64,000 nt of DNA, from positions 1 through 64,000 of the forward strand of contig JAQYWR010000012.1 in assembly GCA_029379225.1 (NCBI GenBank). Reading direction: 5' to 3'. Positions within the stretch are counted from its first letter, which is position 1; each line of letters starts with the position of its first letter. The notes under the pieces are model-generated. The model was not told the DNA's origin. It was given only the letters and a program-made list of their open reading frames with translations, and did no database searches. The position numbers were made by a program, and so were the translations under genes. Positions 28,226-31,408 of the stretch are shown here, in pieces. Origin of the DNA: Nostoc sp. S4. Its GTDB lineage: Bacteria; Cyanobacteriota; Cyanobacteriia; Cyanobacteriales; Nostocaceae.

Positions 28226-28918
28226 CTACTTTGAAGGCTTACTCAATGCTTTAACAAGCTCGTCTTTTTTCATTTTAGTGATGCCAATAATCCCTTGTTT
28301 TTTTGCCATCACTTTTAGCTCGGCTGTTGTCATTGTTTTGAGAATACCGATATCAGTAGTTGTATCTGGCATCGGTTGAGGAGTTAGATAAAAAACTTGA
28401 TTTAAAGCATCAAGTTTTTTACCTTTGGTAATACCACACTTTAAATCAACAATTGGTTCTAATGTCTTCCAATATTCACGAGGAGCTTCATCAATTCGGT
28501 TTGTAGCTATAGCAGGTTTAACTGCTTTGAGAACGCTATCTGGTTGCTTGACTAAATACTCTAATGCTGCTTTTATTTCATCCCTAGACGCCTTAGAGAG
28601 ATTGATTTTTGGAATTTCTTCTCCTGCCAGTACTTTTGTGACTTCAACTGTCTCATCACTACCATCAGTAATAATGCACCAAACGCGATCTAAACGAGCG
28701 GCTTCTGCAATTGCATAAATGAAAGAGTTACCAATGACTTGATACTTATTTTTGCCAGTTTCTTTTACAATTACTGGAATCCAATTTCTTCCACCTTTTT
28801 GATTCAGTAAATGAGCTGAAGCTTTAATTAAAAATTCAGGTGCATCAGTTCCTTCACCAGGGTCAATTTCATCCAAATATAAATGCATCAAGTTTCCAAT
28901 ATCGCTGAGGCTACTCAT
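28226..28918 (-). CDS. Hypothetical protein with ParB/Srx-like N-terminal region and SAP/Rho-N-like C-terminus; partner of the ParA-like gene
   Basis: WIPVIVKETGKNKYQVIGNSFIYAIAEAARLDRVWCIITD; C-terminal TTAELKVMAKKQGIIGITKMKKDELVKAL; overlaps the upstream gene by 4 nt. Confidence 0.75.
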   Translation of the reverse strand: MSSLSDIGNLMHLYLDEIDPGEGTDAPEFLIKASAHLLNQKGGRNWIPVIVKETGKNKYQVIGNSFIYAIAEAARLDRVWCIITDGSDETVEVTKVLAGEEIPKINLSKASRDEIKAALEYLVKQPDSVLKAVKPAIATNRIDEAPREYWKTLEPIVDLKCGITKGKKLDALNQVFYLTPQPMPDTTTDIGILKTMTTAELKVMAKKQGIIGITKMKKDELVKALSKPSK

Positions 28919-30252
28919 TGTAAAAAATATTCCTTTGCTAGATTTTTGTAATATTCATGAGCAGATCGATCTCGATAAACCGCAGGAATACGCGAGAAAG
29001 CTGAACCAGCTATGTTAGCGTAGCTTGGAAGCTCATGAATACGAAGGTCTCTGTTGGCATTGGTATACTTGGGATAGAAGTAGGACAGTAAATCAAATCC
29101 CTCTTTTTGAGCATTTTTAAGAATATTATTAATTTCTTTTTGAGCAACTTCTAATTGAAATGGTGTAATCTTTTCCCCATTGAAAAAAATTGGTAATGGA
29201 ATGGGGCTACCATCACCTTTTTGAGATTGGACTTCAGGAATGAATTTCTTCATTACTATTGCTGCATTTTCTAAAGAGAAAAGATTGTTATGCTTTGTGG
29301 GAATGAGAACGACATCAGCCGCATATACAGCTAGCTGGCTAAACACTCGCCAGTTGGGTGGCGCATCTATCAAAATATAGTCGTATTCTTGTCTTGAAAA
29401 TTCTAACTTGTCATAAAGAGTGGGAAATTTAAAGTAATTACGCAACAGATTTTCAGATACATCTGTCAGTTCTCGATCGGCAGGAATAATATCAAATCTA
29501 AGTTCTGAATTAACCTTCCTTAGAGGAAATTTATAAGGATGTAGAGTACTTTGAAGTTCTATATTCCGTTCCTTAAGAGCCTCAAATACACTACCTTTAC
29601 TTAATGGAAGACCTAAAGAACTTGTTAAATCTTGTTGATTTGGATCGAAATCGATCGCTAGAACCTTTTTCCCTAAAAAAGTTAAAATAGCTGCTAAATT
29701 AACGGTAGTTGTCGTTTTACCTACTCCACCTTTGTTGTTATAAAGCGCGATGGTTAAAGCTTTAGTGGGATTTTCAATTTTTTTCCGAATTGAAGCGACT
29801 ACATTATCAATATTATCTGCATCAAGTGGAAGACACTGTGTTGCAGGATAAATCACTTTTCCATGCTTGCGAAACAGTTGAATATGGCAAGAATTAGTAA
29901 TAATTCCCCACTGGATTGTTTGACAATTAGGTGCAAGTAGATAATTTTTTAGTTGTTTAACCGTTTTTTGATACTGTGCAGCATCTTCAGATAAGTTAAC
30001 ATCCCTTCCCTTCAACTCCAGCAGAAGGTATGGATTAGATTTTGTATGTAAAAAGATATCATCTCCAATAGTTCTCCTAGCGGCTTTATCAACAGCTCCA
30101 TCACCAGTATTATATTGCGGATGAATTTCTTCAGATTCAAACCCTAATTCTCTCAGCAAGTGAGAAGCGAAAAGATGGTCTACAACAGCTTCTGGTGCAT
30201 TTTCGGGCAGGCTTTGTAATGCCGCTCGAAGACTTATAATTGTCATGCTCAT
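28915..30252 (-). CDS. ParA-family ATPase fused to an N-terminal HsdR_N/PD-(D/E)XK-like domain
   Basis: N-term GDGAVDKAARRTIGDDIFLHTKSNPYLLLELKGRD; ParA motifs YNNKGGVGKTTTTVNLA, DFDPNQQDLTSSLG, YDYILIDAPPNW. Confidence 0.88.
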   Translation of the reverse strand: MSMTIISLRAALQSLPENAPEAVVDHLFASHLLRELGFESEEIHPQYNTGDGAVDKAARRTIGDDIFLHTKSNPYLLLELKGRDVNLSEDAAQYQKTVKQLKNYLLAPNCQTIQWGIITNSCHIQLFRKHGKVIYPATQCLPLDADNIDNVVASIRKKIENPTKALTIALYNNKGGVGKTTTTVNLAAILTFLGKKVLAIDFDPNQQDLTSSLGLPLSKGSVFEALKERNIELQSTLHPYKFPLRKVNSELRFDIIPADRELTDVSENLLRNYFKFPTLYDKLEFSRQEYDYILIDAPPNWRVFSQLAVYAADVVLIPTKHNNLFSLENAAIVMKKFIPEVQSQKGDGSPIPLPIFFNGEKITPFQLEVAQKEINNILKNAQKEGFDLLSYFYPKYTNANRDLRIHELPSYANIAGSAFSRIPAVYRDRSAHEYYKNLAKEYFLQ

Positions 30253-30443
30253 AGTGTGGGGTGACTTCCAGCAATGTCTAAGTCTAGTGTTCCCACTTCA
30301 GGACAATTATTTATTGTGTTTGTCTATCATTTATCGGAAAAGGTTACAAAATTACTCTAATAACCAGACAAAAACAGACGCCAAACTTAGTAATTTGGAG
30401 GTAGATTGAGGAACTAAACCCAACATTACCCATCCCAGATAAT

Positions 30444-30584
30444 TGGGTTTCACTTCGTTTAAACTAACCTACAATTAAGTCTAATTTTAAGTTTGAAAAC
30501 ACGCTCTAGTTCTTTTGCGATCGCTCTTTTGCATTTCCATCATCATTGATGCCACAGCTACACCCCTCGTAGACATTGCACTGG
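30444..30584. repeat. Direct repeat, copy 1, flanking hicAB
   Basis: tgggtttcacttcgtttaaactaacctacaattaagtctaattt...ctctagttcttttgcgatcgctcttttgcat; aligns with 31271-31408. Confidence 0.85.
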
Positions 30585-30654
30585 GTTTTATTCACAACGA
30601 GAAACGTCTCTATAAGGATTAACAGAAATTTTATCTGTACAGATAAGTAGTAGG

Positions 30655-30831
30655 ATGAAAGTACGCGAAGTTATCAAACGACTATAAGCTGATGGTTGGT
30701 ATCTTGATAGAACTAAAGGTAGTCATCAACAGTTCAAACATCCAGATAAACCTGGTACTGTAACAGTGTCCGGTAAGCCAAATGTGGATGTGCCAATTGG
30801 TACTCTGAAAAATATCTGGAGACAAGCTTGA
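30655..30831 (+). pseudogene. hicA: HicA-type mRNA interferase toxin with in-frame TAA at codon 11
   Basis: MKVREVIKRL*ADGWYLDRTKGSHQQFKHPDKPGTVTVSGKPNVDVPIGTLKNIWRQA*; stop at 30685-30687. Confidence 0.88.
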
Positions 30832-30845
30832 TTGGAGGAAGACTG

Positions 30846-31070
30846 ATGCGTTATACAGTTGTGATTGAAAAGGGAGAAACTAGCTATGGCGCTTATATCC
30901 CTGATTTACCAGGTTGTGTAGCTGTGGGCGAAACTTTAGAAGAAGTCAAGCAGATGATTGCAGAAGCTATTATATTTCATATAGAAGGAATGCTAGAAGA
31001 TGGTTTACCTATACCTAAACCTACAAGCATTGCTCATGAGGTTGAAGTTGCAAACTACAGCAAAATATAA
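30846..31070 (+). CDS. hicB: HicB-family antitoxin
   Basis: MRYTVVIEKGETSYGAYIPDLPGCVAVGETLEEVKQMIAEAIIFHIEGMLEDGLPIPKPTS. Confidence 0.92.
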   Translation: MRYTVVIEKGETSYGAYIPDLPGCVAVGETLEEVKQMIAEAIIFHIEGMLEDGLPIPKPTSIAHEVEVANYSKI

Positions 31071-31270: not shown

Positions 31271-31408
31271 TGAGTTTCACTTCGTTTAACCCAACCTCCA
31301 ATTAAGTCTAATTTGCAGTTTGAGAACACCTCTAGTTCTTTTGCGATCGCTCTTTTGCATCTCCAGCTTAATTGGTGTCGCAGCTGCACCCGTCATAGAT
31401 ATCGCTGG
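31271..31408. repeat. Direct repeat, copy 2, flanking hicAB
   Basis: tgagtttcacttcgtttaacccaacctccaattaagtctaattt...cctctagttcttttgcgatcgctcttttgcat. Confidence 0.85.

Follow-up and report, generated by a model that had tools for sequence, protein, structure and literature searches.

What would a ParA-type ATPase do with a restriction-type nuclease domain at its N-terminus and a ParB-like partner encoded directly behind it? The question is raised by two adjacent genes in the window analysed here, a stretch of 64,000 nucleotides from the 7.66-Mb assembly of a Nostoc-type cyanobacterium. Gene A (28915..30252, minus strand, 445 aa, ATG start) encodes a ParA ATPase that carries a PD-(D/E)XK nuclease-like domain at its N-terminus. 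Gene B (28226..28918, minus strand, 230 aa, ATG start) overlaps A by 4 nt (ATGA), an arrangement that recurs in many homologous loci. The two genes lie downstream of ndhCKJ and are convergent with it. The original prediction had described both ORFs correctly in their coordinates, strand and 4-nt overlap, and all the motifs it quoted were found: KGGVGKTTTTVNLA, DFDPNQQ, ILIDAPP and GDGAVDKAARR...LLLELKGRD. DNA comparison between loci extended the homologous block beyond the coordinates first given, since it starts about 45-135 bp before A; at the other end, similarity stopped at about the stop codon of B.

A HicA/HicB-type pair was also observed upstream of A (30653-31070, plus strand; family assignment by eye). 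Its hicA-like frame was broken by an early in-frame stop and its hicB-like ORF (30828-31070) was intact. The segment is flanked by two near-identical 59-bp stretches (30514-30572 and 31340-31398); sister locus L165 lacks it at the corresponding position.

The nuclease-like domain of A spans residues 8-164 (29761..30231, minus strand) and was recognised by Pfam, AlphaFold and Foldseek. The Pfam family HSDR_N_2 (PF13588) matched residues 21-130 just above its cut-off (26.0 bits vs 25) and was found in 34 of 39 A homologs. A search of the PDB by sequence alone, with a profile of the nuclease domain, gave merely short chance matches, so that a fold comparison was needed. The AlphaFold model of residues 1-164 (mean pLDDT 90.4; input of 39 window and locus sequences) showed a helix at 21-35, strands at 43-48, 53-58 and 76-80, a helix at 92-105 and a strand at 115-119. 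This helix-3 strands-helix-strand order is the alpha-beta-beta-beta-alpha-beta core of PD-(D/E)XK enzymes. The best Foldseek match was the type IIG enzyme BpuSI (prob 1.00), and the HsdR fragment 3h1t (prob 0.97), other HsdR fragments and two restriction-endonuclease-like proteins were matched as well, with 3ijm among the matches.

The predicted D...ExK active site consists of D55 (30088..30090, minus strand) and of E79-L-K81 (30010..30018, minus strand). D55, E79 and K81 were kept without exception in 39 aligned A homologs. Together with E21 in the first helix of the core (30190..30192, minus strand), they were also invariant in a diverse set of 20 sequences reaching down to 24% identity. For the window pair compared with three unlinked Nostocaceae copies, dN/dS was 0.09-0.16 for all parts; with L009-L011 the nuclease-like part gave 0.09-0.13 and the ATPase 0.14-0.16. 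Judged by these ratios, purifying selection on the nuclease-like part is as strong as on the ATPase. Fold match, invariant residues and purifying selection together indicate that the N-terminus of A is genuinely of the nuclease type and that its active site is intact, cleavage itself being predicted. The strict conservation of the nuclease residues further argues that the fusion serves to cut DNA or, failing that, to bind it in a metal-dependent way. The original prediction had read this N-terminus as PD-(D/E)XK-like and listed, among the findings that would speak against it, a missing nuclease-fold match and D/E/K residues unconserved across homologs. The match exists, the residues are conserved, and fold and active site both bear the reading out.

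The remainder of A, residues 165-445 (28918..29760, minus strand), is a ParA/MinD-type ATPase. AAA_31 was assigned to residues 167-342 (2.9e-33, Pfam), phmmer matched ParA/Soj structures, and McdA structures were weak matches. The deviant Walker A motif KGGVGKTTTTVNLA (K174 onward; 29707-29733, minus strand) is followed by Walker A' (DFDPNQQ, residues 201-207) and Walker B (ILIDAPP, residues 293-299), and K174, K179, D203 and D296 were invariant in the 20 diverse sequences. In the most distant A homologs, on plasmid loci L091-L094, the sequence KGGVGKT is replaced by KGGVAKT or KGGVSKT.

Three parts can be distinguished in B. Residues 10-97 (28628..28891, minus strand) adopt a ParB/sulfiredoxin fold in the AlphaFold model (pLDDT 91.2); Foldseek matched it to ParB, Noc, PadC, KorB and sulfiredoxin, with E values of 1.5e-6 to 6e-5 for ParB, Noc and PadC, and the Pfam match to ParB_N was weak (16.3 bits, below the cut-off of 26.3). 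Residues from about 105 to 189 (28352..28606, minus strand) form an unfamiliar helical module, NLSxAS...YWxxL...KCGITKG, which is duplicated in some homologs and is possibly a DNA-binding unit. Residues 193-225 (28244..28342, minus strand) are a Rho_N/SAP-like tail, for which the Pfam Rho_N score was 30.4 bits vs a cut-off of 24.9. At relaxed limits, Rho_N and ParB_N were both matched in 42/42 B homologs; the Rho_N tail was missing from B of the most distant plasmid homologs (L091-L094). No consistent Pfam match to an HTH was obtained among the B homologs. The ParB/sulfiredoxin-like stretch and the C-terminal SAP/Rho-N-like motif that had been suspected in the partner were both supported, the former by AlphaFold and Foldseek, the latter by a score above the Pfam cut-off. 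A divergent A-B pair was seen in two small cyanobacterial genomes of 1.7-1.8 Mb (L114, 3321-5695; L115, 3169-5537), where B has about 310 aa and a duplicated middle module.

As defined in PMC12704722, canonical ParB proteins carry the ParA-binding motif LG[KR]GL ([LFI]G[KR]G[LFI]) and three CTP boxes; GERRxR was reported as essential for CTP binding in Streptomyces ParB (PMC12207404). The N-terminal ParA-binding motif, by the definition of PMC12704722, was present in 0/54 B sequences, and so was GxRR, the mark of the GERRxR CTP-binding patch. Where GERR is expected, the 42 closer B sequences have [GA]N[STA]F, in which N64 is invariant, and in the model just 9 residues precede the first long strand. 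With the ParA-binding motif and the GERR patch missing in all 54 sequences, B is, as judged from model and alignment, a ParB-fold protein but not a canonical ParB.

Do A and B belong together? B lay immediately downstream of A in all 44 testable loci, those where the contig continues past A, and the tree distances of the two proteins correlated with r = 0.90. Clustering of neighbouring ORFs over 45 loci yielded no third shared gene common to more than a few of them. We rejected the idea that the pair travels within a discrete mobile element, because no other gene recurs and homology ends at the stop codon of B. The idea of a two-gene system stood as far as the adjacency is concerned, but not as an obligate pairing: one genus, as well as the two further genomes G280 and G306, has an intact A and no detectable B. 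Homologs lacking the partner, the third finding that the original prediction had listed as counting against it, thus do occur in part. The genus in question has small genomes, and the A-only form was found in 11/11 of its species, with the active site intact. The gene adjoined rpsB-tsf in the three loci inspected (L113, L118 and L119). In the A homologs of these three loci, the ExK motif is followed by an insertion (ARRSRNTPSQTV).

Upstream of A, about 35-53 bp before its start, we found an imperfect dyad, TGTCCTGAAGTGGGAACA (30288..30305, minus strand), that may act as an operator. It is conserved in the subgroup L009-L029 with a consensus of about TGTCCCCAnnTGGGnACA. The exact dyad was single-copy genome-wide and other matches were at about control level, so that no multicopy parS array was detected. 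Subgroup L035-L045 has a different dyad, located after a TACACT box. Dyads can be made out by eye upstream of A in this second subgroup, but RNAalifold detected no consensus in the alignment, and the idea of a conserved RNA hairpin there was rejected.

The species-genome scan returned 46 relatives of A that were complete or nearly so in length; they were cyanobacterial except for one on a contig titled 'Tatlockia' (L023). Since L023 groups with Chlorogloea/Aliterella, it is probably a mis-binned cyanobacterial contig. Among 386 species of the cyanobacterial phylum, A was present in 42 and B in 37; within the genus, A was present in 13 of 53, from at least three subfamilies. The full architecture of A was found in none of 1,094 sampled genomes of Pseudomonadota, Bacillota and Bacteroidota (E <= 1e-40), a search that contained no positive control from these three phyla.

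Small plasmids of Nostoc UHCC 0870, Leptolyngbya boryana and Pseudanabaena carry the pair, as does a 27.9-kb contig of genome G409. One copy comes from an IMG/VR contig that also has genes for a portal protein, an endolysin and a sigma factor. In the plasmid records the products are named 'AAA family ATPase', 'ParA family protein' and 'Rho termination factor N-terminal domain-containing protein'. Chromosomal copies occupy differing sites. At the window's own site, sister genome L025 has an intact pair, G278 has only a stub of B beside ndhJ, and the other inspected genomes of the genus have nothing of A-B. Decay was seen elsewhere too, with broken A frames in L048, L049 and L054, an A-to-B deletion in L117 and several broken copies within the genus. 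A search of 147 neighbouring ORFs for a defence island gave scattered matches only, the neighbours being mostly ordinary metabolic genes; matches to DndA/SspA among them are probably ordinary cysteine desulfurases.

The reading that we favour, with slightly less than even confidence, is that A-B is a transferable accessory module whose ParA-type ATPase switches a PD-(D/E)XK nuclease, its purpose most likely being conflict between genetic elements. ATP-bound A would dimerise on DNA as ParA proteins do, and dimerisation would bring two nuclease domains together. B would mark particular DNA or DNA-protein complexes through its middle module and Rho_N/SAP tail and would govern the place or the time of cutting by A, which would then be reset by ATP hydrolysis. 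The presumed benefit would be the restriction or exclusion of incoming plasmids, phages and sister elements. Defence and plasmid exclusion, both suggested in the original prediction, are reasonable as putative functions of the pair. A conflict module would fit because the pair is patchy, occurs on plasmids and a phage contig, has no other linked genes and decays frequently. We are more tentative about an anti-element system in which the ParA ATPase cycle directly gates the restriction-type nuclease fused to it, with guidance from a ParB-fold protein that has lost the CTP-switch motifs; the segregation machinery's recognition of plasmids and phages would here have been turned into a weapon.

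Several points count against the conflict reading. Neither a methyltransferase nor any other gene for self-protection is found repeatedly near A-B, a weakness that leaves the sparing of self DNA unexplained, and the ordinary neighbours, with no clear defence island, are another. Retention of A alone throughout one genus points to a housekeeping role in that lineage. Residues of the D/ExK type, even where conserved, can also be used to bind DNA without cutting it. Finally, a ParB-fold protein encoded next to a ParA ATPase usually marks a partition system. Partition and host DNA processing may both be regarded as serious rivals.

A non-canonical cassette for plasmid partition or maintenance, to which we give a rather low probability, would have A move DNA over the nucleoid with B as its centromere-binding adaptor. 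The nuclease-like domain would merely bind or process DNA, taking the place of the HTH found at the N-terminus of larger ParA proteins, and the chromosomal copies would be plasmid relics or co-opted. The single operon of a ParA and a ParB-fold protein, the occurrence on several small plasmids and the G409 contig, and a dyad upstream of A that resembles an autoregulatory site or a single centromere would all agree with it. However, this dyad is single-copy, the Nostoc UHCC 0870 plasmids that were inspected already have ParM and/or other ParA-type systems, and many copies are single and chromosomal with no recurring replication gene. Such a cassette would also leave the invariant nuclease site unexplained, and it is opposed by a B that has neither the ParA-binding motif nor GERR and has so few residues ahead of its first long strand. 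Ordinary ParAB-type partition of an element, one of the functions first suggested for the pair, is weakened because B has lost the ParA-binding and CTP-binding motifs.

Alternatively, A might be a host enzyme for DNA processing or repair, acting for example on replication or transformation intermediates, that is easily spread and lost, with B as a modulator dispensable in some lineages. The genus that keeps A alone, with its active site intact and, in the loci inspected, beside rpsB-tsf, would be explained in this way. Elsewhere, however, the gene is patchy, linked to B and carried by mobile elements, and we consider a host function of this kind improbable. A toxin-antitoxin addiction pair, with A as DNA-damaging toxin and B as antidote, would suit an overlapping, patchy two-gene operon found on plasmids, but it was rejected as the main reading and is very improbable, since A survives without B in one entire genus as well as in G280 and G306, the gene of the supposed toxin precedes that of the antidote, and A and B are both large proteins under strong conservation.

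All in all, A-B looks like an uncharacterised cyanobacterial system of DNA conflict or DNA maintenance. It is a pair of the ParA/ParB-fold kind, and the possibility that it represents a new anti-element system is a real one. ParA ATPases move or position cargo; if the fused nuclease domain with its intact site is functional, a ParA switch can also control DNA cutting. In B, a ParB fold has been kept beside a ParA gene yet lacks the ParA-binding and CTP-binding motifs, which makes the role of such a fold without CTP directly testable; the module is small, and cyanobacteria that are not pathogenic can serve as hosts.

How does the pair compare with known systems? No description of a ParA-HsdR_N fusion was found in the open-access literature. 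PADLOC-DB 2.0 gave no full-length match: A had weak partial ones (PDC-M28B on the ATPase, Drt4 with E 0.004) and B had none. In line with the original prediction of an undescribed system, no named system matches the pair, the nearest named families covering single domains only. With ParABS (ParA/Soj and ParB/Spo0J) it shares a ParA with deviant Walker A and a ParB/Srx-fold partner directly downstream in one operon. It differs in the nuclease-like domain of A, in a B without LG[KR]GL, GERR or any recognised HTH but with a C-terminal Rho_N/SAP, and in that a multicopy parS-like site was not found. With the N-terminal nuclease of type I HsdR (HSDR_N_2, PF13588) and with BpuSI, A shares the fold and a D...ExK followed by a QxxxY motif, but the nuclease domain is fused to a ParA ATPase and not to a helicase motor or a methyltransferase. 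A type I restriction-modification system was rejected on account of this ATPase, the lack of any other recurring neighbour and the absence of HsdM and HsdS from the commonest neighbour families of the A-B loci. The cyanobacterial positioning ATPases of the McdA/MinD type belong to the same ParA/MinD superfamily as A, but the matches have no nuclease-like domain and the partner here has a ParB fold. Closest to B in character are the divergent ParB-CTPase-fold proteins (orphan, plasmid and phage) which, in the passages of PMC12704722 consulted, are enriched on mobile elements, lack the ParA-binding motif and carry extra domains. These passages report a single fusion, ParB-CTPase-DUF3850, as consistently co-encoded with parA. 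Compared with the proteins described there, B has a Rho_N/SAP tail, and its ParA neighbour is itself a nuclease fusion.
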